DNA from: Nitrobacter winogradskyi | GTDB taxonomy: Bacteria; Pseudomonadota; Alphaproteobacteria; Rhizobiales; Xanthobacteraceae | Reading direction: 5' to 3' | Assembly: GCF_006539545.1 (NCBI RefSeq) | Contig: NZ_BJNF01000029.1 | Coordinates: 1 to 64,000 of the forward strand | DNA: 64,000 nt | Part shown: piece by piece, positions 1 through 17,000 of the stretch | Layout of the letters: the number at the start of each line of letters is the position of its first letter | Position numbering within the stretch: the first letter of the stretch is position 1 | The notes under the pieces: model-generated | The model's input: the letters and a program-made list of their open reading frames with translations, nothing else | Told to the model about the DNA's origin: nothing | Database searches by the model: none | Program-made: the position numbers and the translations under genes

Positions 1-2
1 AA

Positions 3-233: not shown

Positions 234-242
234 GAGGGGGGC

Positions 243-914: not shown

Positions 915-1056
915 AACGCTGCCCGCCTGTCCATCATGGTGTCCCGTCCGCTGACGGCGCCGTCAAGGCGACCCTCCGGGGCGCGCTGGCGCGCGGCCTG
1001 GACCGCGCTCGCGGCCGTGTCATGCTGGTCGGCCATCTCAGCATCAGGAGGCTTCG

Positions 1057-1623
1057 ATGCTATTCAGGTTAACCCTTCCGATCATCGCGCTACTCGCGAT
1101 TCCTTGGGTCGCAGCCGCGCAGGATCAAGCTGCCGGTCGTTGGCAGGCGATGAGCTATTATAGTTTCGAGACCCCATCGACGACCGACCCGTTACAGACG
1201 CTGGTCTGGCCCGACGTCATCCGCGAGGCCAACGCATACGTGACCACCGAGCTCAGGCGGCCCCTCGGCGGCAAAAACGCGCTGGTGACCGCGCTCGCCT
1301 CGACCTATCGCGACGGCAACCGGACCATCATCGTCAGCACGGCGCTATCGCGCGCTTGCGATAGCGGCGCCAATGACAAAGGGGCCGAGATCGAGCCGTC
1401 GAACTGCCCTCTGCGCATTGTCACGATCGAGAGCGGAAAGGTGATGTCCATTAAGTCGGACACCGGCTGCTACACGGATCACGCGGATCCCGACCTGCCG
1501 GCGAAGAACCGCAACGATAATTCCTACACACGCTACGATCCGGCGACCGGCACGATTAGCTTCCGCACCACGATCGGTGGCCATGACGTGCCAAGCTGCG
1601 CACGTGTCTATTCGCTCAAATGA
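1057..1623 (+). CDS. Secreted hypothetical protein
   Basis: 188 residues with a classical signal peptide (MLFRLTLPIIALLAIPWVAAAQ, cleavage expected after AAA or AQ). The start is set by AGGAGG seven bases upstream. The mature protein has WQAMSYYSF near the N-terminus, a central NCPLRIV and four further cysteines, suggesting disulfides in the periplasm. It resembles the preceding gene in layout. Function unknown; its neighbour downstream is a lysozyme-like protein, so a role at the cell envelope is possible but inferred only from context. Confidence 0.65.
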   Translation: MLFRLTLPIIALLAIPWVAAAQDQAAGRWQAMSYYSFETPSTTDPLQTLVWPDVIREANAYVTTELRRPLGGKNALVTALASTYRDGNRTIIVSTALSRACDSGANDKGAEIEPSNCPLRIVTIESGKVMSIKSDTGCYTDHADPDLPAKNRNDNSYTRYDPATGTISFRTTIGGHDVPSCARVYSLK

Positions 1624-1647
1624 CGCTCTAGGATGCGGAGGAAATCC

Positions 1648-2352
1648 ATGTTCACGCGCCTTAGCGGTCTTATGTTCTTCCTTTTTCTTTGCGCGAGCTT
1701 CCTGTGGCTCGGAGACGGTCAGGCAGTGGCGGGACAGTATTGCGAACGCACCAATTACTCCGCACAAGATATCACGGATGCCGTGAGAAACTCTCCATTG
1801 CGCGACGATCTTAAAGGGACGTCCTGCTCGCTTGGCGGATTGGGACGGTTCGAGTCGGGCGGCAACAAAGGCAACTACAATGGCAGCTGCTGCACCGGCA
1901 TCTTCCAGCTCAACAATGCCAACGTCCAAAAATACGCCGGGACTGATCGGGCGGGCTACGGCTGTATGTCGCTGCAGGACCAAGTCGGCGCCTGGGCCAA
2001 GCTGACCAACGACGGTTACAATTCACCCGCCGTCAGACAGCTGGCCTCGATGACGACCTTCGACGGCCAGAAGGTCGATGCCAGCTTTATTGCCGCCTGC
2101 ATTCAGCTCGGCACCGGCAATTGTCAGAAGATGCTGAATTCCGGCAAATGCTCCGGCTTCGCGGATATCAATGGAACCACCATCTGCCGCATGGCTAATA
2201 ATGCGCGCGCGATGGCAGATCCAAATTGCCAGGATGGCCAAGCCGTCTGCGGCCCCTCTGGGCCAGGCGACTTTCCGACCTCGACGGGCATCGCCGCCAA
2301 TCCGCCGACAGCTTCGAGCGCATCGATTATCGTCAACCCGACAGATGTTTAG
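1648..2352 (+). CDS. Exported lysozyme-like / transglycosylase-like protein
   Basis: 234 residues. ATG 1648 is preferred over in-frame ATG 1633 because GGAGGAAA lies between them at ribosome-binding distance. A signal peptide ends near AVAGQ. The segment GLGRFESGGNKGNYN followed by GIFQLNNANVQKYAG fits the lysozyme-like fold: a catalytic glutamate in FESGG, then a G-[IV]-[FM]-Q-[LM] motif as in lytic transglycosylases. Many cysteines (at least ten) suggest a disulfide-bonded periplasmic protein. Plasmid-borne proteins of this kind often open peptidoglycan for a secretion or conjugation apparatus (VirB1 role), but no type IV secretion genes are in this window, so that role is an inference. Confidence 0.6.
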   Translation: MFTRLSGLMFFLFLCASFLWLGDGQAVAGQYCERTNYSAQDITDAVRNSPLRDDLKGTSCSLGGLGRFESGGNKGNYNGSCCTGIFQLNNANVQKYAGTDRAGYGCMSLQDQVGAWAKLTNDGYNSPAVRQLASMTTFDGQKVDASFIAACIQLGTGNCQKMLNSGKCSGFADINGTTICRMANNARAMADPNCQDGQAVCGPSGPGDFPTSTGIAANPPTASSASIIVNPTDV

Positions 2353-2364
2353 GCGGCCGCGCGG

Positions 2365-2616
2365 TCAATTGACCTCGGACGGCTCGCGGATGATGAAGGG
2401 CGCGAAGAAGTTCAGCTGCTCCTCGATCGCGGCGCAGAGATCGCCGCCTCGGTAGTGCGCATGCACCAGCGCCCAAAACACGACCTCGTCCGAGCGGCCC
2501 GCGAACAGCGCTTTCTGCAGCGACCTACCGATCAGGGTGATCGCTCTCAGGTGGTCGTAGCGGGCGTGCAGCTCTCGGGCAACGATTTTGGTGTCGGCAG
2601 TCCGTATCACAGCCAT
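2365..2616 (-). CDS. Small hypothetical protein (83 aa)
   Basis: The protein begins MAVIRTADTKIVARELHARY and ends FFAPFIIREPSEVN. The frame stays open far upstream, but ATG at 2616 is preceded by AGAGGAA and the codon use beyond it changes. It overlaps the end of a second small frame (2607-2855) by ten bases, a pattern of translational coupling. Family not recognised; mostly helical character with no membrane segment. Confidence 0.5.
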   Translation of the reverse strand: MAVIRTADTKIVARELHARYDHLRAITLIGRSLQKALFAGRSDEVVFWALVHAHYRGGDLCAAIEEQLNFFAPFIIREPSEVN

Positions 2617-2855
2617 TTCCTCTTTTTCGCACTCGTTTCGGTCATCGGGTGCGGGGCCACGCTGCGTCCGAAAGGCGGGTTTGCCCTGCCGGCCTGGATC
2701 GCGTCGAGTGTCTCGCGATTTAAGGATATCGGCAGCGCGACGACCGCGCCGCGCCGATGCGCTTCGCGAATCGTCGAGCTGTCGCGCTCGAGCCGTCCTC
2801 CTCCCGTCCCTTCTCTTCGACGAAGACCGCGTGGCGAAACGAAAAGCCCGGTCAA
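2607..2855 (-). CDS. Small hypothetical protein, start uncertain
   Basis: The C-terminal half (RRGAVVALPISLNRETLDAI then QAGRANPPFGRSV) has high GC in third codon positions and reads as a true protein. The N-terminal half is doubtful: the only starts are a TTG at 2855 and no clear ribosome binding site. The overlapping frame just upstream also looks partly coding (DAQVIPDPDICRHVALIDRA), so an older gene with a frameshift is possible. Function unknown. Confidence 0.3.
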   Translation of the reverse strand: MTGLFVSPRGLRRREGTGGGRLERDSSTIREAHRRGAVVALPISLNRETLDAIQAGRANPPFGRSVAPHPMTETSAKKRKWL

Positions 2856-3038
2856 TCAGCGCAACGTGACGGCAGATGTCCGGGTCGGGAATGACCTGAG
2901 CATCGGTGACTCCTGGGCTTGTTAGACAAGACGACATGGCCACGCATGACACGGTGCCGGTATGGTCAGAAAAGACCATTGCCAGCGAGAGTTCCGTATT
3001 GCAGACGCCGTGCCAAAGACCGCAAAGGCAGGCTTGGG

Positions 3039-3341
3039 CTAGCCGGCGCCGGAGGCCGATGGGCAACCCTCAGGCGGAAGAGCGACGCCGTGGCCGTCGG
3101 GCAGGTAGCCGAGCTCGTCGCATAGATCGCGGAAGACAACGCGCCGGCGCTCCTTCACGGCCTCGGCAGATGCGCAACGGAGAAGGTGCTGCTCCTCGGT
3201 TGTGCCCTCGGGCCAGCAGGCCGGGCAACTCGCTGTGTGGAGCGCGCGCTCCCATGACGCCAGCGCCTCGACGTAGGCGCGGTGGGCTGAGACCGCCTGC
3301 GACTCGAGCGCGCTGTCGCGTCGCTCCCCTGCCTTGGCCAC
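3039..3341 (-). CDS. Hypothetical protein with CPAC motif (100 aa)
   Basis: GTG at 3341 is chosen because CGGGAGAG sits six bases upstream. The product contains ASCPACWPEGTTEEQHLLRC, a C-x2-C with a third cysteine 16 residues on, which could bind a metal, followed by a basic helix (EAVKERRRVVFRDLCDELGY). GC at third positions is high throughout. I do not recognise the family. Confidence 0.5.
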   Translation of the reverse strand: MAKAGERRDSALESQAVSAHRAYVEALASWERALHTASCPACWPEGTTEEQHLLRCASAEAVKERRRVVFRDLCDELGYLPDGHGVALPPEGCPSASGAG

Positions 3342-4563
3342 TCGATCTCTCCCGGCGAAAACAGTGTCTGCGGTACGCCCCCGCAAACAAACTCGGTGAC
3401 TCTTGGTGATCGGGGAGTTCGAAAACCGCTGTTACACGGCCCCGTGGCCTTTAGTTCGGGTGAACCTGTTGCATACGCCACAGGCTCCCCGACCCTAAGG
3501 TCAAGGAGTGCGGTGCCGTAACGGCCGGCACCAACCGGTAACAGAGGGGTTTCGACGCCCCAGGGCAGCGCGTACTGCCCCGCACGACTCATAACCCCTT
3601 GTGGCGGCGTGTTCCAGAGGGATTCGCTGAACAATCTGCCGCGAAGCGGATGCAAGCGCTTGAACCGCTAGAAGAATTAGTCGCGCACGGACGCAATGGA
3701 TGCGCAACTGTTGTTAAGAAAGGCCCCGCGCTGGGGTCAGCAGGCTGCACCGTGATGCAGCGCCTCCCCTCGCGGCCAGTAACACCTCGACGACTCCGGG
3801 AGTGCGACGACGGGCATGATTTGATCGTGGCTGCGCTCGCGTCGGCAATTTCCGGCGCCGGTGGTTCCGATTCTCCGGCAGGCGTGGAGTGAGCACCGTC
3901 AAGAGCACGCAGCGCTTGGCGTGGTGCGAGATAGTCGCGGTGTGGCTGTGGCAGCCGCGCTTACGCGCGGGCGCGCGCTATCTTCGGCCGGGAAAGCCGG
4001 CCTCAGACCGAACCCGCGGCAAGCGGTTTCGGCCCATGCGGGTCACGATCGCTCTGCCAGAAGCGAGTAGAGCTTATGTCTAGCTTGGCCATCGCCATCA
4101 GCGGGAAGCCGACAGGTTACCCCATGGTGTGCGCTTGTTTTGTCTTTCCTGCCGAAGCTAGCGGCCATAGCGATCGGCAGAGCGCCAAAGCTCCCACCGG
4201 AAGACGCGAGAACGTCAGTCTCGTGTAATGTTGCTCGGCGTCAGGACAAGTGGCGCCCGGCGAGCAGTTGTCGACACAGCGAAGACACCACGAGGCACGC
4301 GTCGTTGCGCGTGAGTGAGGCAGCGACAACCTCGGGTCGGGACCGCGGCATTCGATTTGGCATGCGTCCGGGGAAGGACCACCCCGCTCTCAAATGGGCT
4401 TTCCTTGGTCCGGGTCACGGCCTTCCACGATCAACCCACGAGGGGTTCGCTACGCAAGCGTGCGACCTCTCCGGCTTCGCCTGCGAGGTGACCGCGGCCG
4501 CGCCCGGACACGTCGGCGCCTGTCGAGCGGGGATGGTCCCCGCCCCAAGACGGGAGCCTCACG
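3342..4563. other. 1.2 kb without a convincing gene; inverted-repeat-rich stretch
   Basis: From about 3405 to 4130 short complementary arms are dense. CGGGGAG at 3412 pairs with CTCCCCG at 3486 and encloses hairpins such as GTTCGGGTGAAC and CCTGT-N10-ACAGG. Next come GACCCTAAGGTC, GGTGCCG-N7-CGGCACC (3510-3535), AGGGGTT with AACCCCT enclosing GGGCAG-N6-CTGCCC (3544-3600), GCTGCA-N6-TGCAGC (near 3742-3763) and GGCCGG-GAAA-GCCGGCC (near 3990). Such nesting suggests a structured RNA or a decayed ribozyme. GC-rich DNA also folds easily by chance. The minus-strand frames here have poor codon use. Confidence 0.35.
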
Positions 4564-4749
4564 ATGTCGCAGAATCTCAACCTCGCCCAGGAGAACGCCT
4601 TCAATCTCGCTCGCACGCTGATGGTGCCCGTGGTGCTGTTTCAGGTCGACGAGGCGTTCGGCGTGATGGTCTCCAGCGAATACGACGGCGACGAAGACAC
4701 CATCGTGCACGATTATGATCCGTGGGAGATTATGAGCAGCTCGGACTGA
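4564..4749 (+). CDS. Small acidic plasmid protein (61 aa)
   Basis: Starts MSQNLNLAQENAFNLARTLM and continues with a beta-rich stretch (VPVVLFQVDEAFGVMVSSE) and an acidic end (DGDEDTIVHDYDP). GGGAG lies eight bases before ATG. Similar short proteins are common on rhizobial plasmids and have no known function. The last nine or so codons (HDYDPWEIM) coincide with the left copy of a 28-bp inverted repeat whose other copy is at 11342-11369, so the C-terminus may have been rewritten by the insertion of the RIT-arsenic unit. Confidence 0.65.
   Translation: MSQNLNLAQENAFNLARTLMVPVVLFQVDEAFGVMVSSEYDGDEDTIVHDYDPWEIMSSSD
4707..4734 (+). repeat. 28-bp inverted repeat, left copy
   Basis: Perfect reverse complement of 11342-11369. 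It contains two copies of GATTATG (4711 and 4728) separated by TCCGTGGGA, a possible pair of recombinase core or arm sites. It lies in the last codons of the 61-aa gene. Confidence 0.9.
4729..4739 (+). repeat. ATTATGAGCAG motif, outer left copy
   Basis: Identical copies are at 8029-8039 (plus) and 11380-11390 (minus), with a one-base variant at 4785-4795 (minus). This copy faces inward towards the recombinase-ars unit. Confidence 0.7.
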
Positions 4750-4763
4750 GGAAGCCGGATTCA

Positions 4764-4789
4764 CGCAGCCCGACCGAGATCGGGCTGCG
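4764..4789. terminator. Hairpin between the 61-aa gene and ritC
   Basis: CGCAGCCCGA and TCGGGCTGCG form a perfect 10-bp stem with a six-base loop, between two convergent genes. No run of T follows on either strand, so it may be a weak bidirectional terminator or part of the element end. Confidence 0.4.
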
Positions 4790-4795
4790 CATAAT
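4785..4795 (-). repeat. ATTATGCGCAG motif, left end of recombinase trio
   Basis: Reads ATTATGCGCAG on the minus strand, directly at the ritC stop codon. With 8029-8039 it forms an outward-facing inverted pair that tightly encloses the three recombinase genes. Confidence 0.6.
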
Positions 4796-5799
4796 CATAG
4801 CGATTGCAGGAAGGCCATGAGTTGGTCCGGTGGCCGATACCGCATTGGCGCAGTGACGATCGGCTGGAGCCGGCTCAATGCCTGCTCCTTCATGGCGAGA
4901 TCGGCCTCCATGTAAATGTGTGTCGTGCTCGGATGCTCATGGCCTAGCCACAGCGCGATGACCGTGATGTCCACGCCTGATTGCAATAGGTGCATTGCCG
5001 TGGTGTGGCGGATGGTGTGAGGCGAGATCGGCCGGCCGGCAAGAGCCGGAAGCGTGCACGCCGCGTGGGCAACTGCCTGTCCGAGCCGCTGAGTCACGCT
5101 CGATCGGGACAGTTGTTGGCCACGCCCGCTTGGGAACAGATGCGCCCGAGGGCTGGCATCTGCCAGGTGGGGTAGCCAGTGCCGGATCATGGCCGCGGTC
5201 GACTTCCACAGCGGCACGCTTCGGCGCTTTCTGCCTTTGCCGTGCAGGTGCGCGACCGGCGAGACATCGAGCACCACATCGCAGACCTTGAGGTCGATCG
5301 CCTCAGAGACCCTGGCACCAGTGTTGTACAAGAGCGTGAACAGCGCTTGATCGCGCCGGCCAGCCCATGTCGTGCAGTCGGGGGCTGCTATGATCGCCTC
5401 CATCTCGGGGCGGGACAGGAAGCCGAGCACGGCTCTGTCGTGACGCTTCTGCGGGACGGCCAGGCTGCGCTCGATGACCGCGAGCGCGGTCAGGTCTTGG
5501 TGAGCGGCATACTTCAGGAACGATCGGATGGCGCACAAACGCGCATTGCGGCTCCGAACTGCATTCTTCCGCTCGCGTTCGAGATGGTCGAGAAAGGCGA
5601 GGATCAGCGTTGCGTCAAAATCGGCCAGGGCGATATCGGTCGGCGTCTTTCGAAGCTGCTTCTCCGCAAAGGCGAGCAGTAGCGTGAACGTGTCGCGGTA
5701 GGCCGCGACTGTGTTGGAGCTGACGGCGCGTTGCTGACGAAGATAGTCGACGAAGAACCGCTGGAGCAGCATCGGGAACGAAGGTGTCGCCTCAACCAT
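4795..5799 (-). CDS. ritC: Tyrosine recombinase, third gene of RIT trio
   Basis: 334 residues, XerC/D-like. An N-terminal SAM-like core-binding domain (about 10-105, FFVDYLRQQRAVSSNTVAAY) is followed by the catalytic domain with NTGARVSEAIDL (first Arg), HTIRHTTAMHLL (His-x-x-Arg), WLGHEHPSTTHIYM (His/Trp and nucleophile Tyr). ATG 5799 overlaps the upstream recombinase stop by eight bases; the longer open frame to 5940 lies inside ritB and is rejected. In RIT elements the three products are thought to act together in site-specific integration; their individual reactions are not known. Confidence 0.85.
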   Translation of the reverse strand: MVEATPSFPMLLQRFFVDYLRQQRAVSSNTVAAYRDTFTLLLAFAEKQLRKTPTDIALADFDATLILAFLDHLERERKNAVRSRNARLCAIRSFLKYAAHQDLTALAVIERSLAVPQKRHDRAVLGFLSRPEMEAIIAAPDCTTWAGRRDQALFTLLYNTGARVSEAIDLKVCDVVLDVSPVAHLHGKGRKRRSVPLWKSTAAMIRHWLPHLADASPRAHLFPSGRGQQLSRSSVTQRLGQAVAHAACTLPALAGRPISPHTIRHTTAMHLLQSGVDITVIALWLGHEHPSTTHIYMEADLAMKEQALSRLQPIVTAPMRYRPPDQLMAFLQSL

Positions 5800-6757
5800 G
5801 GCGCGCCTCCCTGCGATGCGACGAGAGCGTCTCGAAGCGCACTCCCGCCAGCGCCATGATCTCTGGGACAGCCTGCATGTACCAGTATGTGTCGCCGAGA
5901 TTGACGTGGCCGACATAGGTCGAAAGCGCCAGCATTGCATTGTCGATATCTGTACCGTCGGCCTGCCAGAGCATCAGGCGACGGCAGATAAAGGTATGTC
6001 GCAGATCATGGATGCGGATAAACCGATGTCCGCCGCGCGGTACGATGCCGAGGTCTCCCGTCAGGCGGAGCCACGCTCGACGCACGGCTGCGTAACGGAG
6101 AATCTCCCCGCTTCGCTCATCGAGGAAGAGTGGCGCGGAGCGGTACGTCGAACCGAGCCTTGCCCGCGCCCGGAGATATTCTCGCAAAGCCACCGCCGCC
6201 GTTGGATGCAACGGCACAATGCGTGTCCGCTCAAATTTGGAGCGTTTCACGGTGATGTGGGTGTTCAGATCGCTAAGATCGCCGCACCAAAGCCGCAGCG
6301 CTTCGGAGATCCGCAGGCCGGTTGCGGCAAGCAGTCCGAGCAATGTCGGGAGCGTGGCCGGGCCAGCACCAAACACAGCTGGAAGAGTGCCCGCTGCTGC
6401 AATGAGCCCGTTTACCTCGGCTGGTGTGAAGATATGTGGCGCAAGCCGGCGCTTTGACCGCCCGAATGGTGCGCCCTCCGGGAAGCCGGTCCTTGGCTCT
6501 GCGTCGGCTAGGTGGCGGGCGAACGGCCGGAGGACATTGAGCCGCTGCGCCCAAGTGAACGGGTCGGCATGTACCGCTTCCTCCTTCACCCATCGCAATA
6601 CGATGGCGCTGGTGAGCGGACCTTCATGGCCGCTTCCATCGGCGAAGCGAGCGAACGCCAGCGTGAGACTGCCCGATCGATCCAAGACGAAGCCGAGCCG
6701 GCGGCGCTCGGAGAGGTAAGCCTCGGCGCGCGCGAGCATTGTAGCCGGCGCGCTCAT
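5792..6757 (-). CDS. ritB: Tyrosine recombinase, second gene of RIT trio
   Basis: 321 residues. ATG 6757 overlaps the ritA stop as ATGA and has CGGGAG eight bases upstream, so it is preferred over in-frame ATG 6775. Catalytic landmarks: ATGLRISEALRL (Arg), IHDLRHTFICRRL (HxxR) and YVGHVNLGDTYWYM (His and Tyr). Length and the extra spacing between HxxR and the final His (ADGTDIDNAMLAL insert) match the middle recombinase of RIT elements. Translationally coupled to both neighbours. Confidence 0.85.
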   Translation of the reverse strand: MSAPATMLARAEAYLSERRRLGFVLDRSGSLTLAFARFADGSGHEGPLTSAIVLRWVKEEAVHADPFTWAQRLNVLRPFARHLADAEPRTGFPEGAPFGRSKRRLAPHIFTPAEVNGLIAAAGTLPAVFGAGPATLPTLLGLLAATGLRISEALRLWCGDLSDLNTHITVKRSKFERTRIVPLHPTAAVALREYLRARARLGSTYRSAPLFLDERSGEILRYAAVRRAWLRLTGDLGIVPRGGHRFIRIHDLRHTFICRRLMLWQADGTDIDNAMLALSTYVGHVNLGDTYWYMQAVPEIMALAGVRFETLSSHRREARHG

Positions 6758-7989
6758 GCGATTTCTCCCGGCCAAGGCAATGCGACGGATGACAGCCGTG
6801 CGACGTCAACCCTCGCATATGTCGCAGACGTGACGATGCTGCGATGGCGCAGAACGTCGGCGACCTGCTTCATCGGCACGCCGGAGTTAACCAGCCGACT
6901 TGCAAGCGTGTGCCGGAGGATGTGGACGCGGGTTCGGTCCCAGCCGAGCCGAGAGTAGGCTGCATGCAGGGTTTTCTGCACGACGCGCCTCCCGACCGGC
7001 TCGCCGAGAGGGGCAACATGACGAACGAACACCTCGCGCCGGGCTGTCGCTGGCCGCTCATTGACGATGTAATCGACGATCGCTTCGCCGGTCGACGGCG
7101 AGAGAGGAAGGATGTCGGATCGCCGGGCTTTCCCTGCCGGGACTTTCACGATGCCTTCTGTCCAATCGATGTCATCGAGGGTCAGTCGGATGACCTCGCT
7201 CGAACGCAAGCCGAGATCAGCCAGGCAACGCACGATGGCGTAGCCGCGCCGTCGCGACGGGCACGGCTTGTCGAACGCAGAGAACAATTGTTCGACGTCT
7301 GCCGCCGACAGAGCCTCCGGCAGGTTTGCAGCACGCCAGAACGCGGGCCGCGGCACCGCTTTGCCGAGGTGAGCGATATCGTCACCCATCAGCGCGCGAT
7401 AGCGGAGATAGCAACGAACCGCGCCAGCCATGACGCGGACCGTGCTGGTGCTTCGGCTCGCGTCGCCAAGCACGAACGCCCTAACGGCGTTGCGGCTGAT
7501 CGCACCGAGCTCAATCGGCCCGGTGCCGACCTCTTGCCGCAGCAGACGTCGGATGATGCGTCGGCGGTGATCGCGCGTGCCTTGGGTCAGCCCCCAGACG
7601 TCCCTCATCTTGGCATCGAACCGGACAAGCTCCAGCTCGATAGCGTCGGGTGCAGGTGCAGCGGCGATGTCATGCGTGCGCAGCACGCGCAAAAGATTGT
7701 TCAGCGCCGCCCTGTTAAGGATGACGCCGTGTGGGGTCGGATGATCGCAGGAACAGTTATGCAAATGGCTCGTGAGGAAGCGGCCAATGAGAACCTCGTC
7801 AATGTCACCTGGCCCAGCGCCAAGGCTTTGTAGCCAGTCGCCGAAGTGGAGAGCTGAGGCGGTATAACGGCGACGGCGCTTAGCTCCGTAACGGCTACGC
7901 GTAAGATAGTCGGTGTAGAAGCCTATGACGGGCCAGAGAACATTATCTGGATCTTGGATCTTCAACTGAAGGCGTGGGGGCGTCGGCAT
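6754..7989 (-). CDS. ritA: Tyrosine recombinase, first gene of RIT trio
   Basis: 411 residues, start ATG 7989 with TGGAGATC upstream. It has an extended N-terminal region (about 1-110, including a cysteine-rich HNCSCDHPTPHGV) before the core-binding domain, then LGLRSSEVIRL (Arg), VHILRHTLASRLV (HxxR) and VLRHRSIVTSATYARV (His and Tyr). The long N-terminus and first position are as in other RIT elements. The promoter should lie in 7990-8090, back to back with the arsR promoter. Confidence 0.85.
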   Translation of the reverse strand: MPTPPRLQLKIQDPDNVLWPVIGFYTDYLTRSRYGAKRRRRYTASALHFGDWLQSLGAGPGDIDEVLIGRFLTSHLHNCSCDHPTPHGVILNRAALNNLLRVLRTHDIAAAPAPDAIELELVRFDAKMRDVWGLTQGTRDHRRRIIRRLLRQEVGTGPIELGAISRNAVRAFVLGDASRSTSTVRVMAGAVRCYLRYRALMGDDIAHLGKAVPRPAFWRAANLPEALSAADVEQLFSAFDKPCPSRRRGYAIVRCLADLGLRSSEVIRLTLDDIDWTEGIVKVPAGKARRSDILPLSPSTGEAIVDYIVNERPATARREVFVRHVAPLGEPVGRRVVQKTLHAAYSRLGWDRTRVHILRHTLASRLVNSGVPMKQVADVLRHRSIVTSATYARVDVARLSSVALPWPGEIA

Positions 7990-8028
7990 GCTCGATCTCC
8001 ATTGTTGGGATCTCGAGCAGGACTCCGC

Positions 8029-8039
8029 ATTATGAGCAG
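8029..8039 (+). repeat. ATTATGAGCAG motif, right end of recombinase trio
   Basis: Exact match to 4729-4739 and to the reverse complement of 11380-11390. It lies 40 bases upstream of the ritA start and marks the likely end of a minimal RIT element. Confidence 0.6.
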
Positions 8040-8096
8040 TTCAACGTTAGTTTGACCGTGGATGGGTCTGTCCGCACGACCAGTGCCCCTTGCGTT

Positions 8097-8132
8097 GTCT
8101 CCATATGTCTAGTAGTCTCGACATATGGAGAC
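8097..8132. promoter_or_regulatory. Long inverted repeat over the arsR start (probable ArsR operator)
   Basis: GTCTCCATATGTC and GACATATGGAGAC form perfect 13-bp arms around a ten-base spacer. ArsR repressors bind such dyads. The arsR ATG (8125) lies inside the right arm, so bound repressor would cover the start codon. Confidence 0.7.
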
Positions 8133-8496
8133 AAATGAAGCCATCCTCGCCTTTTCCGCGCTCGCCCAGCCGACCCGCCTGGAGGTGTTCCGTCTCCTCA
8201 TGGTGCATGAGCCCAGTGGCTTGCCTGCCGGCGAGATCGCGCGCCGCCTAGCCGTGCCGCACAACACCATGTCGACGCACCTCGCGATCTTGACCCGGGC
8301 CGGGCTTATCGAGGCCGAGCGAGAGAGCCGATCTATCGTCTACCGCGCGCAGCTCGAGGCGGTGCGAAGTCTGGCCGGCTTCCTCGTCAAGGATTGCTGC
8401 GGCGGCCGACCAGAGTTGTGCGCGCCGCTGATCGCCGATCTTTCGCCCTGCTGCTCACCCCAAACGACCCCGTCGAAGGAAGTCATCCATGGCTGA
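8125..8496 (+). CDS. arsR: ArsR-family arsenite-responsive repressor
   Basis: 123 residues, winged helix (GEIARRLAVPHNTMSTHLAI as recognition helix-turn-helix). Candidate arsenite ligands are at the C-terminal side: Cys91-Cys92 and Cys99 in DCCGGRPELC, with a further Cys109-Cys110 pair. This differs from the E. coli-type site in the DNA-binding helix. No Shine-Dalgarno is visible because the start is inside the operator dyad; the message may be leaderless. It heads the ars operon and overlaps the next gene by eight bases. Expected to repress the operon until arsenite binds. Confidence 0.9.
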   Translation: METNEAILAFSALAQPTRLEVFRLLMVHEPSGLPAGEIARRLAVPHNTMSTHLAILTRAGLIEAERESRSIVYRAQLEAVRSLAGFLVKDCCGGRPELCAPLIADLSPCCSPQTTPSKEVIHG

Positions 8497-9016
8497 CCGT
8501 ATCTATAACGTGCTGTTCCTTTGTACGGGCAATTCTGCCCGATCCATTCTGGCCGAAAGCATCTTGCGTAAGGATGGCGCCAGTCACTTCCGTGCCTTCT
8601 CGGCCGGAAGCGATCCGAAAGGCCGGATAAATCCGCTCGCGCTGAAGGTGCTCGACAGCTTCGACTATCCGACCGACGGCCTCCGCTCCAAGAGCTGGGA
8701 GGAGTTCGCCAAGCCCGACGCCCCGACCATGGATTTCGTGTTCACCGTTTGCGACAACGCCGCTGGCGAGACCTGTCCCGTTTGGCCGGGTCAGCCGATG
8801 ACGGCGCATTGGGGGATCGAGGATCCGGCTGCGGTCGAAGGCTCCGACGTCCAGAAGGAAGCCGCCTTCGTCACCGCGTTTCGCTATATGAAGACGCGCA
8901 TCGGCGTGTTCGCGGCGCTGCCGCTGGACAGCCTCGACAAGATCGCACTCGGCACGAAGCTGCGCGAGATCGGCCAAAGCGAAGGCACGACGTCGCCTCG
9001 CACGAGCGCCGCATGA
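8489..9016 (+). CDS. arsC: Arsenate reductase, low-molecular-weight phosphatase type
   Basis: 175 residues. The P-loop VLFLCTGNSARS gives the CX5R signature at Cys12-Arg18 used to attack arsenate. It has the LMW-PTPase fold and SWEEFAKPDAPTMDFVFTVC, whose second cysteine lies in the redox region. GGAAG lies upstream, and the start overlaps the end of arsR. It reduces arsenate to arsenite for export by Acr3. A second arsenate reductase of unrelated fold follows directly; operons with both types are known. Confidence 0.9.
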   Translation: MADRIYNVLFLCTGNSARSILAESILRKDGASHFRAFSAGSDPKGRINPLALKVLDSFDYPTDGLRSKSWEEFAKPDAPTMDFVFTVCDNAAGETCPVWPGQPMTAHWGIEDPAAVEGSDVQKEAAFVTAFRYMKTRIGVFAALPLDSLDKIALGTKLREIGQSEGTTSPRTSAA

Positions 9017-9024
9017 GGCACATC

Positions 9025-9474
9025 ATGGACGTCATCATCTACCACAATCCCGACTGCGGGACCTCGCGCAACACGTTGGCGATGATCCGCAATGCCGGTA
9101 TCGAGCCGCATGTGATCGAGTATCTGAAGACGCCGCCTTCGCGGAGGATGCTCGAGCAGCTCATCGCGCGCATGGGCATCTCATCTCGCGCGCTCCTGCG
9201 CGAGAAGGGCACGCCCTATGCGGAGCTTGGTCTGGGCGATCCGAACCTTACGAATGACCAACTCCTCGATGCGATGATGGCGCATCCGATCCTGATCAAC
9301 CGGCCGATCGTTGTGACGCCCCAGGGCGTTCGGCTCTGCCGTCCTTCCGAGGAAGTGCTCAATCTGCTGCCGCCGCAGCAGGGGCGAGTTCATCAAGGAG
9401 GATGGAGAGCGCGTGGTGGACCAAGACGGCCGCCGCGTGGCGACGGCGTGAGGAAGAGCTATGTCCACATTTGA
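9025..9474 (+). CDS. arsC: Arsenate reductase, glutaredoxin-dependent type, C-terminal frameshift
   Basis: The N-terminal 115 residues are canonical: IIYHNPDCGTSRN with catalytic Cys11, and PILINRPIVVTPQGVRLCRP carrying substrate-binding arginines. ATG 9025 has GAGG six bases upstream; ATG 9013 (overlapping the arsC stop) is an alternative. At 9381-9384 a GGGG run shifts the frame. As written the protein ends in an arginine/glycine-rich tail at 9474. With one G fewer it would continue as GEFIKEDGERVVDQDGRRV and stop at 9451, the normal family end, just before acr3. Either a sequencing error or a recent mutation; the catalytic core is intact. Confidence 0.8.
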   Translation: MDVIIYHNPDCGTSRNTLAMIRNAGIEPHVIEYLKTPPSRRMLEQLIARMGISSRALLREKGTPYAELGLGDPNLTNDQLLDAMMAHPILINRPIVVTPQGVRLCRPSEEVLNLLPPQQGRVHQGGWRARGGPRRPPRGDGVRKSYVHI

Positions 9475-10516
9475 ACGGTATCTCACCCTCTGGGTTGCTT
9501 TGTGCATCGTCGTTGGCATCGCGCTCGGGCACGTCATGCCCGGCACATTTCAGGTGATCGGTGCTGCGGAGATCGCCAAGGTCAATCTGCCCGTCGCCGT
9601 GCTGATCTGGCTGATGGTTATTCCGATGCTGCTGAAGATCGATTTCGCCGCGCTCGGCGAAGTCGGCCGCCATTGGCGCGGGATCGGCGTCACCCTGTTC
9701 ATCAATTGGGCGATCAAGCCATTCTCGATGGCGCTGCTCGGCTGGCTGTTCATTGGATACCTGTTCCGACCGTACCTGCCGGCCGGCCAGATCGATAGTT
9801 ACATTGCCGGACTCATCATCCTTGCCGCCGCGCCCTGTACGGCAATGGTGTTCGTCTGGTCCAACCTGACCAAGGGCGAACCGCATTTCACGCTGAGCCA
9901 GGTAGCGCTTAACGACGCGATCATGGTCGTGGCCTTTGCGCCGATCGTCGGCTTGCTGCTCGGGCTCTCCGCGATCACCGTGCCGTGGGGCACGCTCGCC
10001 CTGTCGGTGGTCCTCTATATCGTCATTCCGGTGATCATTGCGCAGCTTCTCCGGCGCCAACTGCTGGCGACCGGCGGGCAAACCGCGCTCGACCGGCTGT
10101 TGGCCAGGCTCGGCCCGGTCTCCCTCGTGGCGCTGCTGGCAACGCTTGTGCTGCTGTTTGGCTTCCAGGGCGAACAGATCATCGCACAGCCGCTGGTGAT
10201 CGCGCTGCTCGCCGTGCCGATCCTGATCCAGGTTTATTTCAATGCTGGTCTTGCATATCTGTTGAACCGGATTTCGGGCGAACAGCACTGCGTTGCCGGC
10301 CCCTCCGCTCTGATCGGGGCCTCCAACTTCTTCGAGTTGGCGGTCGCTGCCGCCATCAGCCTGTTCGGCTTCCAATCCGGCGCGGCGCTGGCCACCGTGG
10401 TTGGCGTGCTGATCGAAGTGCCGGTGATGCTGACTGTCGTCTGGATCGTGAACCGCTCGAAGGGGTGGTACGAGCGCGGCCAGCCAGCGCCTCGTGTCAT
10501 CGAAGAGGCGCGTTGA
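9461..10516 (+). CDS. acr3: Acr3 arsenite efflux permease
   Basis: 351 residues with ten hydrophobic segments, inner membrane. Diagnostic motifs are the [13 protein letters not shown] segment with conserved Cys126 and [13 protein letters not shown] near the C-terminus. GAGGAAGAG precedes ATG. It exports arsenite made by the two reductases; Acr3 carriers are unrelated to ArsB and need no ATPase. The next gene starts at its stop codon. Confidence 0.92.
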
Positions 10517-11238
10517 TGCCCGCTTCTAAATTATCGGACTTACCGAACATCGATCCTGTTGCTTTCGAAGCTCCAGCCGCAGACGAACTTGGTTCGCAAC
10601 CGCCCGCGCACCCACCGCGCATCCTGCTGCTTTACGGCTCCCTCCGCGAGCGCTCTTTCAGTCGGTTTCAGGCACAGGAAGCCGCGCGCCTGCTGAAGGC
10701 CTTCGGCGCCGAGACCCGCATCTTCAACCCCAGCGGCCTGCCGCTTCCGGACGATGCGCCCGTCGATCATCCCAAGGTCCAGGAACTGCGCGAGCTGTCA
10801 GCTTGGTCGGAGGGGCAGGTCTGGTGCAGTCCGGAGCGTCACGGCGCCATGACGGGCATCATGAAGGCCCAGATCGACTGGATTCCCCTTTCTATCGGGG
10901 CAGTCAGACCCACACAGGGCAAGACGCTCGCGGTCATGCAGGTGAGCGGCGGATCGCAGTCCTTCAACGCCGTGAACCAAATGCGCGTTCTCGGTCGCTG
11001 GATGCGTATGATCACGATCCCGAACCAATCCTCAGTCGCCAAGGCTTATGAGCAGTTCGATGAGGACGGCCGGATGAAGCCGTCTCCGTATTATGATCGC
11101 GTCGTTGATGTCGTCGAAGAGCTGATGAAGTTCACTCTGCTGACGCGCGGCCCCTCCGCCTACCTCACCGACCGCTACAGCGAGCGCAAGGAAGCGGCGG
11201 AGAAGCTCGCCGCGCGTGTCAAACTGTCGGCGATCTGA
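10516..11238 (+). CDS. arsH: ArsH NADPH-dependent FMN flavoprotein
   Basis: 240 residues with the flavodoxin-like motif [14 protein letters not shown] (FMN phosphate loop) and [20 protein letters not shown] typical of ArsH. The ATG overlaps the acr3 stop (TGATG). Family members oxidise methylarsenite to the less toxic methylarsenate or act as NADPH:FMN reductases. Last gene of the ars operon; 100 bases later the right inverted repeat of the RIT unit begins. Confidence 0.92.
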
Positions 11239-11341
11239 ACTCCACCTCCTGTGGGTGATGGTCGGTGATGCGTAGCGCAATATGCGCGCTCGACCATCGC
11301 TGCCGCTTCGGTCGAGCGCCAAGCAAAGCTGCTCAACTGTC

Positions 11342-11369
11342 CATAATCTCCCACGGATCATAATCGTGC
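11342..11369 (-). repeat. 28-bp inverted repeat, right copy
   Basis: Perfect reverse complement of 4707-4734. Read on the minus strand it encodes HDYDPWEIM, the same residues as the end of the 61-aa gene, followed by DS and a stop. Confidence 0.9.
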
Positions 11370-11379
11370 TTATACGCAC

Positions 11380-11390
11380 CTGCTCATAAT
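11380..11390 (-). repeat. ATTATGAGCAG motif, outer right copy
   Basis: Exact inverted partner of 4729-4739, facing inward. It lies just outside the 28-bp right repeat. Confidence 0.65.
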
Positions 11391-11622
11391 CACGAGTATG
11401 ACCCGTGGTCACCGGCTCATTGAGCCGGGCGACCGGTGCCGCTGGCGCTGTGCCGGATGCAAGGGAAGCTGCGCCGCGGCCGAAGCGAAATCATCGCAAT
11501 GACTTGCCAGCGCGCCCTTGCATCCGGCACGCTTCGCGGCAGGCGGGTGGCGTCCCGTCGCGGTGTGGCGATGGGCACCAACCGAAGAAAGGACCGGGCG
11601 GGATGCCCGCGTGGTGAAGAGC

Positions 11623-12549
11623 ATGGAGAAAAGTGAAATCGAAGAATTGAGAGACAGGGTCGGCTGTGCCGCCCTGCTGGAAGACGACGGCTGGAAAGTC
11701 GACGTGAAGGAAAGCACCCGACGCGCGGTGAAGTACCGCCGCGATGCGAAGATCGTCATCGTGATCCACGACGGTCGCGGTTGGTTCGATCCGTTGTCCA
11801 CGGCGAAAGGCGACGTGTTCGACCTTGCCGAGCATCTGGGCGCTCATGGTTTCCCCGAAGCGTCCGCCCGCGTTGCCGCCCTCGTGGGTTTCGTTCCCGA
11901 AGCGCCCGCGTGGGAGCGGCAGAGCCGGCCGGCGCCGGTCCATTCCGTCGCCGACCGCTGGGGACGTCGCGCCAGGCCTCGGCCCGGTTCGGCGACCTGG
12001 CGTTACCTGACGGAAGAGCGCGGAATCCCCGAATCGATCGTGGCCACGGCAGTCCAGCAGGATCTGCTGCGCGAAGGACCGCACGGCAGCATGTGGGCAG
12101 CACACCGCAATGGCGACGGCGCCCTTCTCGGCTGGGAGGAGCGTGGCCGGCAGTGGCGCGGCTTTGCCACCGGCGGCGACAAGGAGCTTCTCCGGTTTGG
12201 TCCATCGGCGGCGCCGCGGATCTGCGTCACCGAGGCAGCAATCGACGCCATGAGTCTCGCGGCAATCCAGGTGCTGCGCCCGGACACGCTCTACGTCAGC
12301 ACAGGTGGCGGCTGGTCGCCCGCAAGCGAGAAGGCTATCCGCCGGCTCGCGGAGCGGCGGGGAACCCGTCTTGTCGCCGCGACTGATAATAACCGACAGG
12401 GCGACGTCTATGCCGACCGCATTCGCGCGATCGCGGAGGAGACAGGCGCCGGGTACGCACGCTCGCGACCGCGTGCCGGCGACTGGAACGATGACTTGAA
12501 GACGCTCCTCGCGCGCATCGAAAGCGAGCCGTTGGCCAAAGCGGGATGA
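11623..12549 (+). CDS. Toprim / DUF3991-type DNA primase-like protein
   Basis: 308 residues. An N-terminal zinc-less DUF3991-like part (DIFDLAEHL-like GDVFDLAEHLGA at about 68) leads to a Toprim-like domain with ICVTEAAIDAMSLAA (the conserved glutamate) and LVAATDNNRQGDVYADRI (the D-x-D-like acidic pair). Such proteins are common on conjugative plasmids of alphaproteobacteria and are thought to prime or handle the transferred strand. ATG 11623 is likely; GTG 11611 and 11614 are in frame with no better ribosome site. Confidence 0.75.
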   Translation: MEKSEIEELRDRVGCAALLEDDGWKVDVKESTRRAVKYRRDAKIVIVIHDGRGWFDPLSTAKGDVFDLAEHLGAHGFPEASARVAALVGFVPEAPAWERQSRPAPVHSVADRWGRRARPRPGSATWRYLTEERGIPESIVATAVQQDLLREGPHGSMWAAHRNGDGALLGWEERGRQWRGFATGGDKELLRFGPSAAPRICVTEAAIDAMSLAAIQVLRPDTLYVSTGGGWSPASEKAIRRLAERRGTRLVAATDNNRQGDVYADRIRAIAEETGAGYARSRPRAGDWNDDLKTLLARIESEPLAKAG

Positions 12550-12914
12550 CGGCGCCGGACGTCTCTGTTGCTGGCGGCGCGCGTCTGACCAAAGAGCGTG
12601 GACAGGAAATCGCTTGCATCCTGCTCGCTCGCTTGCGGCGGCGCCACGCTCATCGATCCGCCAACCTGTGGCTGGTGAGGCGGACACACACATCGCGGAT
12701 CGGACGGATGTGGAAGGAGGAAAATAAGAAAGGAGCTGAACCCTGCTGCCGCATGCCCGACCGTCGCGTCAAGGGAGGCTTCGCCCGCTGCGCGGCCCTT
12801 GACCCGCCGGACCGGAGAGGCGGCCGCGAAGGAGGGGTCTGAAGGGCTGAAGAGGATGGTGAGCCGAAGGGGTGAGCCGCGCTCCGGCCCGACGAGGCTG
12901 AAAGGAGCCCGCTC
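12550..12914. other. Intergenic leader, GC-rich, no firm gene
   Basis: A frame starting ATGA on the primase stop (12546-12842) codes for about 40 plausible residues and then degenerates into low-complexity basic sequence; I do not call it. The rest is GC-rich inverted-repeat sequence (for example the arms around 12770-12830) before the DUF1419 gene. Confidence 0.5.
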
Positions 12915-13514
12915 ATGACCCCCTTATCCGTCCGCAAAGTCTTTCAAGGAATCGCCGACCGCCGGCAAATGTTTCGGATGTTCGATCGGCACGCGCAGCG
13001 CCCGAACCCTTCACCAGACGATGCACATCTTTATCGCGGGGAGTGGTTCGAGGTCGGTCAGCCCGAGCACAACTACATGTTCGAGATCCTGCCGCCGCTC
13101 TGGATGCGTGGCGATGCATTCGCAATGCGCGAATACCTCACCGGCAGCATCACCAGCGTCTTCTTCGCGCTGACGGTCGACAACAATCTGCGTTTCTTCC
13201 ACGCCTATTGTGACCTGTCGGATCGCGCCTCCTCAGAGCGCATGCGCACGGCGATCGCCGAGCGGGAATCACGGCCCGTGAAAGCGATGACGCGCGAAGA
13301 GCGGCTCGAGCACATCTGGTCGAGTACGCACGACGACTATCGCGGTTACGCCGGCGAGCGCTTCTCCAAGCATCTGTGGGGCAAGCGCACGGTGCTGTTC
13401 TACGGCGGCCAAAGGGGAACCGTGCTGAAGCTGCTCGACCAGCTCACCGATACGGAGATCTTGGCGAAGCTGCCCGTGCATCTGCGATATCTGCCCGATG
13501 CGATCGCTGCGTAA
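12915..13514 (+). CDS. DUF1419 family protein
   Basis: 199 residues, start fixed by AAAGGAGC. Features include RGEWFEVGQPEHNYMFEILP and WMRGDAFAMREYLTGSITSV, matching the plasmid-borne DUF1419 family as I remember it. No catalytic motif, signal peptide or membrane span. It sits at the head of a backbone run with DUF3085 and the methyltransferase-helicase. Role unknown. Confidence 0.7.
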   Translation: MTPLSVRKVFQGIADRRQMFRMFDRHAQRPNPSPDDAHLYRGEWFEVGQPEHNYMFEILPPLWMRGDAFAMREYLTGSITSVFFALTVDNNLRFFHAYCDLSDRASSERMRTAIAERESRPVKAMTREERLEHIWSSTHDDYRGYAGERFSKHLWGKRTVLFYGGQRGTVLKLLDQLTDTEILAKLPVHLRYLPDAIAA

Positions 13515-13525
13515 GGGAGGTGACG

Positions 13526-13924
13526 ATGTTCACGTTCCCCATCCCGGCCGTCCGCACGGTGATCGAGCGCGGTCAATCCGATGCCGCCGCCAATGGCGGC
13601 TTCCGCAATCCCTATTACGGCCTCAAGCCCGGCGAAGGTGAGAAACCAGGCCTCTGGCTGGTCGGCGACAGCGGTGTCTACATCATGGCGAACGGTAAGC
13701 TCGCTAATGGCAATCGCCCGCTTGTCGTCTATTCCGAGGAATGTCATCCAGTCGGCAACCCGGACTGGTTTGACTACAAGCGCCGCCATTTCGGCGGTGA
13801 CGACGGCATCGAGTTTCTTGATGCCGAGCAGATCCTTCCTCTCATCAAACGTGACTTCCGGTTCACCCATCTGCGCGTGCAGCTGAGCGAAGCCGAAGTC
13901 TCGCTTTCGCTCATCGCGCGCTAG
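13526..13924 (+). CDS. DUF3085 family protein
   Basis: 132 residues; AAGGGAGG precedes ATG 13526, so the longer frame inside the previous gene is rejected. Sequence includes GLWLVGDSGVYIMANGKL and VYSEECHPVGNPDWFDYKR, typical of small DUF3085 plasmid proteins. Probably a compact cytosolic fold. Function unknown; 11 bases after DUF1419 and 91 before the methyltransferase-helicase, probably one operon. Confidence 0.7.
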   Translation: MFTFPIPAVRTVIERGQSDAAANGGFRNPYYGLKPGEGEKPGLWLVGDSGVYIMANGKLANGNRPLVVYSEECHPVGNPDWFDYKRRHFGGDDGIEFLDAEQILPLIKRDFRFTHLRVQLSEAEVSLSLIAR

Positions 13925-14015
13925 CGCCCCTTCAAACCGCATCACCGTGATCATCAACGCCGCCGCCCCAATCGGCGGAAGGATGACGCGCGCCCTCACC
14001 ACAAGGAGAACTTCC

Positions 14016-17000
14016 ATGGCGCAAGACGATCCCTTCACCCTCGACCTTTTCGGCAACACGGCGCTCTCATCGGGCCTCGGGTTCGGCGTCACCGCGTTCG
14101 CCGGCGGTATCATCGCCGAGCAAGCCGATGACGATAATCCCGATCCGTCGTCACCTTCCCCCGCGCTTTCGGTCGCGGCGGTGGCGCGGTACGGATCAAC
14201 TGCTGGTCGAGAGCGAGGAACGAACTTCCACCTCGTCGGCGATCGCGCTCTGGCGAAGAGCTGGAAGGAGCGTGCACGCGACAACATCGCCGCGATCCGC
14301 CTCGCGGCAACCATCCAAGCCGAGGAGCGGCCGGCCACCGTCGAGGAGCAGGAGCGGCTGATCCGCTTTCTTGGTTTCGGCGCTTCCGAACTCGCCAACT
14401 TCGTCTTCCGCCGCCCCGGCGAGGCAGAATTCCGCCAAGGCTGGGAAGTGATCGGCGAGAACCTGCAGGATGTGGTCGACGACCTTGACCACGCCTCGCT
14501 GGTGCGCTGCACCCAATATGCGCACTTCACGCCGGAGTTCATCGTGCGGTCGATCTGGGCGGGGCTCCGGCGCCTCGGCTGGCGCGGTGGCCACGTTCTC
14601 GAGCCTGGTATCGGCACCGGGCTGTTTCCGGCGCTGATGCCCGAGGAGTTTCGCGAGGCCTCGTACGTCACCGGCGTCGAGCTCGATCCGGCGACGGCGC
14701 GCATCGCACACCTCTTGCAGCCGCGTGCACGGATCATCACCGGGGATTTCGCGCGCGCGGAGTTGCCGAGGAGTTTCGATCTCGCGATTGGCAATCCGCC
14801 TTTCTCCGATCGAACCGTGCGGTCAGATCGCGCCTATCGGTCGATGGGCCTGCGCCTGCATGATTATTTCATTGCCCGGGCGATCGACCTTTTGAAGCCA
14901 GGCGCGTTCGCCGTCTTCGTGACGAGCTCGGGCACGATGGATAAGGCAGACACATCGGCGCGCGAGCACATCGCGAAGACGGCCGACCTTATCGCCGCGA
15001 TTCGCCTGCCCGAGGGCAGTTTCCGCGCCAGCGCCGGTACCGATGTCGTCGTTGACCTCCTGTTCTTCCGCAAGCGCAAGATCGGCGATCCGGAAGATGA
15101 TCTGTCTTGGCTCGAGCTCGATGAGGTGCGGCCGGCGACCCCGGACGAGAGCGCGATACGCGTCAACCGATGGTTGGTGCGCCACCCTGACTTCGTGCTC
15201 GGCACGCACGCGCTCGCATCGGGACCGTTCGGCGAGACCTACACATGCACACCGCGTGAGGGCGAGGAACTCGAAACGACGCTCGCCGCCAGGATTGGTC
15301 TCCTTCCGGAAACGGTCTACGACGGCGAGCCCGAGGTGATCGACATCAATCCAGATGATGACGGCGACGTGGCCGACCTCGACCTGCCTCAAGATGGGCA
15401 TGTGCGCGAGGGCAGCTACTTCTTCGACAAGGCGCACGGCTTGATGCAAGTCCTCGACGGCGAACCCGTTCCGGTGACGGCGCGAAAGGGGCGCAGCGCC
15501 GACGGCATCCCGGAGAAACACGTCCGGATTATCCGCAAGCTGATCCCGATACGCGACGCCGTCCGCGAGGTGCTCAAATGCCAGGAGCTCGACCGGCAGT
15601 GGAAGGACGCGCAAGTCCGACTGCGCATCGCATGGTCGAACTTCGTCCGAGACTTCGGCCCGATCAACTTCACGACCGTCTCCATGACCGAGGAGGAAGA
15701 GACGGGCGAAGTGCGCGAGACGCACCGCCGGCCGAACATCCAACCTTTCCTTGACGACCCCGACTGCTGGCTCGTCGCCTCGATCGAGGACTACGACCTG
15801 GAGACGAACACCGGGAAGCCCGGACCGCTTTTCACCGAGCGGGTGATCGCGCCGCCGGCGGCGCCTGTGATCAACAGCGCGGCCGATGCGCTCGCCGTCG
15901 TGCTCAACGAGCGCGGTTACGTCGACATCGATCACATCGCCGAACTTTTGCATCGAGACCCTGAGGTCGTGATCGCCGAACTTGGCAGCGGTATCTACCG
16001 CGACCCGGCGGATGGATCGTGGCAGATGGCCGACTCCTATTTGTCCGGTCGTGTGCGCGAAAAGCTGAAGACGGCTGAGGCCGCCGCGGCGCTTGAGCCG
16101 GAGTACGAACGCAATGTCAACGCGCTCGCCGCCGTGCAGCCCGCCGACCTCAAGCCGTCGGATATCACCGCGCGTCTAGGTGCGCCATGGATACCAGCCT
16201 GCGACGTTGTCGCCTTCGTCAAGCAGACGATGGATGCCGAGATAAGGATCCACCACATGCCGGAATTGGCGTCATGGACCGTCGAGGCGCGGCAGCTCGG
16301 GTGGACCGCTGCGGGCACGTCGGAGTGGGGCACAGACCGCCGGCATGCGGGTGAGCTCCTCGCGGACGCGCTGAACAGTCGCGTCCCGCAGATCTTCGAT
16401 ACTGTCAAGGACGGCGATAGCGAGCGGCGCGTGCTCAATGTCGTCGACACCGAGGCCGCGAAGACAAAGCTCCAGAAGATCAAGGATGCCTTCCAGCACT
16501 GGATCTGGTCCGATCCCGACCGCACGGATCGACTGGCCCGTGTTTATAATGACCGCTTCAACAACATCGCGCCAAGAGCGTTCGACGGCTCCCATCTGAA
16601 GCTTCCGGGCGCCTCTGGCGCCTTTGTTCTTTACGGGCACCAGAAGCGCGGCATCTGGCGCATCGTCTCGGCCGGGTCGACCTATCTCGCCCACGCTGTC
16701 GGCGCCGGCAAAACCATGACGATGGCGGCCGCCGTCATGGAGCAACGTCGGCTTGGCCTGATCGCCAAGGCGATGCTTGTCGTCCCGGGGCATTGCCTGG
16801 CGCAGGCAGCCCGAGAGTTCCTCGCTCTCTATCCGAACGCGCGCATCCTTGTCGCCGACGAGACCAACTTTTCGAAGGACAAGCGGCATCGCTTCTTGTC
16901 GCGCGCGGCGACGGCGACATGGGACGCGATCATCATCACGCATTCCGCCTTCCGCTTCATCGCGGTGCCCTCGGCCTTCGAGCAGCAGATGATCCAGGAC

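Follow-up and report, generated by a model that had tools for sequence, protein, structure and literature searches.

The 64,000-nucleotide stretch of Nitrobacter winogradskyi DNA analyzed here (the window; positions 1 to 64,000 of contig NZ_BJNF01000029.1, assembly GCF_006539545.1) carries near its start three tyrosine recombinase genes of the RIT (recombinase in trio) type beside an arsenic-resistance (ars) operon, which together probably form one element. The recombinase genes overlap, lie on the reverse strand and each have a counterpart, in the same order, in the trios of other bacteria (the RitA, RitB and RitC types). In genomic order they are ritC (4795-5799), ritB (5792-6775, identified by Pfam and by its relatives, with an uncertain start codon) and ritA (6754-7989), and the Pfam Phage_integrase model matches all three with E-values from 1e-15 to 1e-32. 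RitC most likely occupies 4795-5799 (334 amino acids, aa) rather than the full 381-aa open reading frame (ORF), because the RitC of Rhodopseudomonas BAL398, to which it is 74% identical, begins at the residue encoded from 5799. RitA (411 aa) is 63% identical to its BAL398 counterpart and 88% identical to that of Afipia sp. Root123D2 (L021). All three proteins have the R, K, HxxR, H/W and Y residues (R262, K287, H356-R359, H382 and Y391 in RitA, with equivalents in RitB and RitC), which we take to be catalytic from the known tyrosine recombinase motif; at each of these positions at least 93% of the 79 trios aligned agree.

The ars genes follow on the forward strand: arsR (8125-8496; NCBIfam HTH_metalloreg above cut-off), an arsC of the low-molecular-weight phosphatase (thioredoxin) type (8489-9016; Pfam LMWPc), an arsC of the glutaredoxin type (9025-9474; TIGR00014 above cut-off, scored over 9025-9450), the arsenite efflux gene acr3 (9461-10516; TIGR00832 above cut-off) and arsH (10516-11238; TIGR02690 above cut-off). 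The operon thus holds a regulator, an arsenate reductase and an arsenite efflux pump, with one of the two ArsC proteins, the phosphatase type, below its model cut-off (NCBIfam arsC_pI258). Just upstream, a dyad of the form CATATGTC-N10-GACATATG (8102-8127) overlaps the start of arsR, has a similar counterpart in L021 and, going by sequence, is likely to serve as the ArsR operator. The two halves form a perfect 8-nt dyad over the arsR start codon; the leader is perhaps very short or absent. Elsewhere in the host genome, a stretch at G000:C50:44693-45025 is 71% identical to part of the operon.

Both groups of genes are enclosed by a perfect 28-nt inverted repeat (4707-4734 and 11342-11369; 33 nt at 94%), found in a repeat scan of positions 1-20000. 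No perfect inverted repeat in the window with arms more than 200 bp apart is longer, and a chance origin is ruled out by 20 first-order Markov randomisations of the window, in which the maxima were 15-18 nt. When the ends are compared with those of related elements, a common layout becomes apparent. The left terminal arm, on the ritC side, spans 4713-4796 and consists of TTATG motifs at 4713 and 4730, a hairpin at 4764-4789 and an inner CATAATC at 4790-4796 that overlaps the ritC stop; it is preceded by the 6-bp core GCACGA (attL, 4707-4712). The right terminal arm lies beyond the ars operon at 11286-11363, with a hairpin at 11286-11319 and CATAA motifs at 11342 and 11359. It is followed by an inner core, TCGTGC (11364-11369), which is the reverse complement of GCACGA, by a 20-bp dyad, TTATA-N10-CATAA (11370-11389), and by an outer 6-bp core, TCACGA (attR, 11390-11395), after which the target half GTATG is restored.

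The target itself is a small plasmid ORF of 61 aa (4564-4749, forward strand), which has no match in Pfam or NCBIfam; the insertion lies at its 3' end, and its last codons come from the element. The same ORF is intact, with a different C-terminus, in three plasmids with an empty site (L010, L011 and L013). In one of these, pOC167 of Afipia carboxidovorans (L010), the intact 61-aa ORF is followed, without an insert, by the same gene for a DUF3991 and toprim protein (assigned by Pfam) that lies at 11620-12549 on the forward strand of the window; this gene also adjoins the target in L011. From the left core, the pOC167 sequence continues directly to window position 11396. When window positions 4560-4712 are joined to 11396-11640, 389 of 398 bases match pOC167, and the corresponding figures are 339 of 391 for Bosea AS-1 and 290 of 396 for Bradyrhizobium 155. 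Because the joined flanks (4712/11396) match these empty sites, the element is placed at 4713-11395, which gives 6,683 bp counting one copy of the core. The original prediction, of a perfect 28-bp repeat enclosing three tyrosine recombinases and an arsR-arsC-arsC-acr3-arsH operon, is borne out by the repeat scan, Pfam and NCBIfam, and the empty sites that it proposed to look for were found. It had placed the unit at 4707-11369; the repeat arms do lie there, but the right end is about 26 bp further out. A different insertion affects the same target ORF in a Bradyrhizobium betae plasmid (L014:1-5018), where the interrupting set consists of a tyrosine recombinase gene (479 aa) and two large ORFs that have no Pfam match (602 aa and at least 516 aa).

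We read positions 4713-11395 as one site-specific RIT element that holds an arsenic-resistance operon, and from these sequence comparisons we put the probability of this reading at roughly 85%. Comparison places it at the 3' end of the small plasmid ORF, its computed removal restores an empty site, and its ends are inverted arms with repeated TTATG motifs around a 6-bp core. In the mechanism that we propose, the three recombinases would exchange strands within the 6-bp core, and a circular form would hold two inverted cores around the dyad, either of which could be used. The ars operon, lying between the innermost motif on the ritA side and the outer terminal arm, would move with the recombinases.

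Related elements at the same target, with and without cargo, help to locate the ends. A 3.46-kb RIT without cargo and with 112-nt arms occupies this site in Rhodopseudomonas BAL398 (pBAL398.3), and in four further cargo-free relatives (L022-L025) ritA is followed by the complete arm, which ends some 150 bp past it. Beside ritA the window has only the innermost arm motif, CATTATGAGCAG (8028-8039); likeness to these four relatives stops there, and the cargo starts directly after it. The outer arm, core and dyad are found beyond arsH. An RIT unit that ends at 8039 was rejected on these grounds. The recombinases and the ars genes are also shared as a unit with L021, where window positions 4707-11238 align as a single 6,541-bp block at 83% identity in reverse orientation, whereas the adjoining DUF3991 flank aligns forward at 91%. 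L021 carries additional genes before its far arm, namely an nhaA (by similarity), a sulfate-permease-type transporter and an MFS transporter.

It could be argued that the trio and the operon are independent neighbors, with the RIT ending near 8039, the ars genes inserted separately at a plasmid hotspot and the outer repeat being a copy of the target. The inner motif at 8028-8039 and the finding, from the empty-site comparison, that the repeat is target-like over its outer 18 nt would fit such an arrangement, as would the presence of other genes at this site in other plasmids. Bradyrhizobium SK17 goes further in this direction, since it has an ars operon of 84% similarity together with nhaA and chrA at this site but no rit genes. 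Next to the DUF3991 gene, SK17 nevertheless retains one RIT end, including core and dyad, and we therefore read it as a decayed RIT and ars element. Also against independent neighbors are the full arm outside ritA in the cargo-free relatives and its absence there in the window, the block shared with L021, a recombination at the cargo-side end of a relative in Rhizobium sp. ZX09 (described below) and the arms themselves: in seven of nine elements with cargo, the window and L017 being the other two, none of the arms compared is as close to the cargo-side arm as the opposite arm of the same element. We consider independent neighbors highly improbable.

The apparent recombination in ZX09 bears on whether a single element reaches across the cargo. 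Plasmid p5 of R. oryzihabitans and A. tomkonis KY000062 carry an RIT and ars element of the L017 type in its ordinary setting. ZX09 is reported as 100.0% identical to both over 11.0 kb and diverges at the ars-side end (against p5, a longer block of 18.5 kb is 99.96% identical); on the other side both p5 and KY000062 are 100.0% identical to it over 2,431 bp. In ZX09 the ars-side end abuts a second copy of the target ORF, in inverted orientation, and its DUF3991 neighbor from p5 is joined head to head with another DUF3991 gene. The switch points between p5 and ZX09 come directly after 6 bp common to both, GCATGA at one junction and TCATGC at the other, and coincide with the equivalent of the window core at 4707-4712.

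By computation, about 166.4 kb lie between the two ZX09 junctions, and closing this stretch would restore an ordinary target site. An inversion was dropped as an explanation: mapping against p5 shows a segment of about 166 kb inserted with unchanged orientation, which a fusion explains better. One RepC is encoded in this stretch and another in the remainder of the plasmid. Most simply read, the inner core on the ars side of the element and the target of another plasmid would have undergone a single site-specific crossover that fused the two plasmids; the reverse event, resolution of the fused plasmid, would use the same sites. The full history may be more complex, as p5 itself carries two RepC genes and has other blocks in common with the stretch of about 166 kb. 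An assembly error at the element/ORF junction is less likely because CP039918 crosses this junction at 99.3%; the DUF3991-DUF3991 junction occurs in one of 127 records, that of ZX09. The recombination makes the cargo-side end look like a working recombination site in a relative, and an end of this kind could, as ZX09 suggests, also fuse replicons.

Several observations nevertheless weigh against a single mobile RIT with cargo at 4713-11395. The window arms match over 28-33 nt only, a search of the right arm gave no clear inner motif, and in several elements the two ends do not have the same core (in the window, GCACGA on the left and TCACGA on the right). The RIT and ars unit occurs once in the host's own genome, and none of 169 matching plasmid records covers 80% of the region, a count from which near records may be left out. 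The opposite orientations seen among relatives could come from inversion in place and not from new insertion. SK17, with ars genes and no rit genes at this site, belongs here as well. Finally, the empty sites, the two orientations and the ZX09 recombination bear on mobility through relatives, and neither excision nor a circular form nor transposition has been observed. The proposal that an RIT carries the operon as cargo nonetheless holds up through the empty sites, the cargo-free RIT at the same site, the reversed unit in L021 and the ZX09 recombination at the ars-side end. Where the original prediction proposed to look for identical units at other loci, L021 holds one of 83% identity and the host genome has no second copy. 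It had named two arrangements that would tell against it: RIT units ending at 8039, which the arms of L022-L025 and of the window argue against, and ars genes at this place without RIT genes, which SK17 formally provides, albeit with its RIT end in place.

The same features raise the question of whether the window copy is a fixed relic of an RIT with cargo that was once mobile. When arm-to-arm likeness is scored out of 90, the window reaches 58, the lowest value among the nine elements with cargo; this, the lack of a clear inner motif in the right arm and the single copy in the genome would all fit a relic. However, eight cargo-free elements have arms still less alike (52.5-57), so low arm likeness alone says little for a relic, and the three recombinases are unbroken and keep the conserved motif residues, while both cores and both outer motifs are present. 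We think a relic unlikely, although from its sequence the window copy may or may not be active.

The wider occurrence of cargo was assessed in 21 elements of the target-specific RIT clade that could be read to both ends. Nine carry cargo between their arms, with ars genes in six of these nine, and the remaining twelve are compact, trio-only elements of about 3.5 kb. These elements came from several sources: L016 and L017 were chosen for acr3 matches in the same records, L015 and L018-L020 as RitA matches and L009 from plasmid-record matches, and 14 came from genome scans only (L021-L025, L027, L028, L030-L033, L035, L118 and L119). In this last subset, five carry cargo and two carry ars genes, which is the fairer figure because L016 and L017 were selected on account of their ars genes. 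Left out of the 21 were L020 (no usable repeat), L026, L029 and L121 (contig ends), L128 (broken ritA), the duplicates L120 and L122-L124, and further Agrobacterium and Rhizobium plasmids. Relatives were present in 3 of 397 genomes of an order-wide sample and in 13 of 391 of a family sample, the host's own genome included in each.

The cargo is varied. Different sets of ars genes lie inside the RIT arms of L015, L016 and L017 (Agrobacterium/Rhizobium plasmids) and of L035 (a Rhizobiales contig), with arms of 68, 90, 188 (including copies of the target ORF) and at least 56 nt, respectively. L028 carries a ChrB-domain gene and an MFS gene; L030 a TonB receptor gene, two phosphoesterase-type genes and an MFS-like gene (below NCBIfam cut-offs); and L031 a MerR regulator gene and a gene that fuses HMA, cation-efflux and signal-peptidase-II domains. 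Three of the nine elements (L016, L017 and L035) have their cargo on the ritC side and the other six on the ritA side. In a tree of concatenated RitABC sequences the clade has 90% ultrafast bootstrap support, with several weak inner branches (52-77), and parsimony over 25 tips gives five changes for cargo and three for ars, the latter most simply as three gains.

As to how the cargo entered, a weakly supported idea is that two inverted RIT copies came to flank the ars genes, after which one copy would have lost its recombinase genes. This predicts that the arm beyond the cargo should be most like the opposite end, and the seven of nine elements noted above behave in this way. Consistent with this, when set against close cargo-free relatives, the arms beyond the cargo in L016, L017, L035 and L021 are more like the opposite-side than the same-side arm (75 versus 56 of 90 in L016 and 65 versus 55 in L021). 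The cargo-side arm of the window has no such preference (53.5-56.5 either way), and no rit remnant is detectable inside the cargo-side arm of any of the nine elements, where between 19 and 442 of 500 shuffled controls score as high. In SK17, shuffles reach the remnant scores in 103 and 406 of 2000 trials, the former for a candidate ritC remnant, which is not significant. Furthermore, four cargo-free elements (L009, L019, L027 and L118) also have near-identical arms, so arms can become alike without cargo. We therefore regard this composite origin as tentative and, on present evidence, somewhat doubtful.

Orientation and the dyad follow a pattern across the clade. The ritC end faces the target ORF in 11 of 21 elements and the ritA end in the other 10, whereas the dyad keeps to the side away from the target ORF, as in the window: 18 of 21 by a strict pattern and 20 of 21 by eye (those of L019 and L035 are visible by eye, and L017 has none), with none of the 21 on the ORF side. 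Two usable inverted cores around the dyad would account for both orientations with the dyad always on the same side of the target. One genome of the window's genus holds two cargo-free RITs of this clade (L118 and L119), on two contigs and in opposite orientations at the target. Among 35 RITs outside the clade (33 of the 43 measurable elements described below, plus L126 and L132), a looser pattern finds the dyad at exactly one end in 23, at both in none and at neither in 12. A dyad of about 20 bp by the 6-bp core at one end (for example L084-L086) may thus be a general rule of RIT ends.

Outside the clade, 66 RIT loci comprise 42 compact elements (3,355-3,571 bp), one with a changed interior (L071), 14 without a usable repeat and nine with an incomplete trio. 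None of the 43 measurable elements carries cargo from end to end, and the suggestion that cargo explains the spread of RITs in general is not upheld; the 23 loci that were not measurable could hide elements with cargo. In L071 (L071:10001-14736), 5.0 kb lie between the arms, RitB was not detected and RitC is displaced. Some loci hold two adjacent RIT trios of different kinds, which converge in L039, L044 and L089 and run the same way in L058, L093 and L129.

On balance we lean, with some reserve, towards a broader view in which RITs would be genuine site-specific transposons with strand exchange at a 6-bp core. One clade would land in a conserved small ORF of alphaproteobacterial conjugative plasmids, in either orientation by way of two inverted cores around a 20-bp dyad, would repeatedly gather arsenic, chromate and other genes between its ends, and would fuse plasmids that share the site. 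The comparison yields a concrete model of the ends (arms, a 6-bp core and a one-sided dyad) and a specific target, and plasmids from before and after an apparently exact recombination are now at hand. By comparison of relatives, metal-resistance genes appear to have been captured more than once. Together, this suggests a route by which resistance operons could enter and link the conjugative plasmids of rhizobia and their relatives.

RITs were named around 2009-2010 (PMC2864759 and its citation). They are described as elements of about 3.5 kb with a 28-9 bp inverted repeat and without demonstrated mobility, and about 68% of the 19 chromosomal RITs whose context is known lay on predicted genomic islands (PMC3414803); a 2023 paper gives 34-bp repeats and lists target specificity, empty site and movement as not tested (PMC10214605). 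Further papers used for comparison are PMC8138268 and PMC6316836. The window element resembles RITs in its three overlapping tyrosine recombinase genes, its inverted terminal repeats of about 28-34 bp and a palindrome near the ends (PMC3414803, PMC10214605). It differs from the published trio-only elements in its length of 6.68 kb, its 3.3-kb ars cargo, its defined target and its defined 6-bp cores. The trio-only size of about 3.5 kb is a described habit of RITs rather than a defining trait.

GInt islands likewise have a trio of recombinase-type genes at one end, insert site-specifically and carry variable cargo, resistance genes among it, but they need a fourth gene, ginD, and their GinC lacks a catalytic arginine (PMC5385486); none were found in Alphaproteobacteria (PMC10214605). 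Membership was rejected, as only 82 bp separate ritC from the element end, there is no fourth gene and the motif residues are present in all three recombinases. The strand-biased circularizing integrative elements (SEs) and Tn554 are likewise tyrosine recombinase transposons with a 6-bp sequence at the exchange point, and SEs carry cargo, but their gene sets are IntA-Tfp-IntB-Srap and TnpA-TnpB-TnpC, respectively, unlike the window trio (PMC10214605). Membership in these was also rejected on gene content, given that the main ORFs between the ends are all rit or ars genes, with no Srap- or TnpC-model search made. In the searchable open-access literature, with most subscription papers outside its scope, no title or start of an abstract among the papers listed reports cargo inside mapped RIT ends. 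The nearest case of an RIT with cargo in the searched print comes from Acidithiobacillus ferrooxidans, where a table gives RitABC as integrase module of a 21.4-kb island and, together with Int, of one of 94.9 kb; these islands are bounded by direct repeats at tRNA-Arg and comM and not by mapped RIT ends (PMC10322971).

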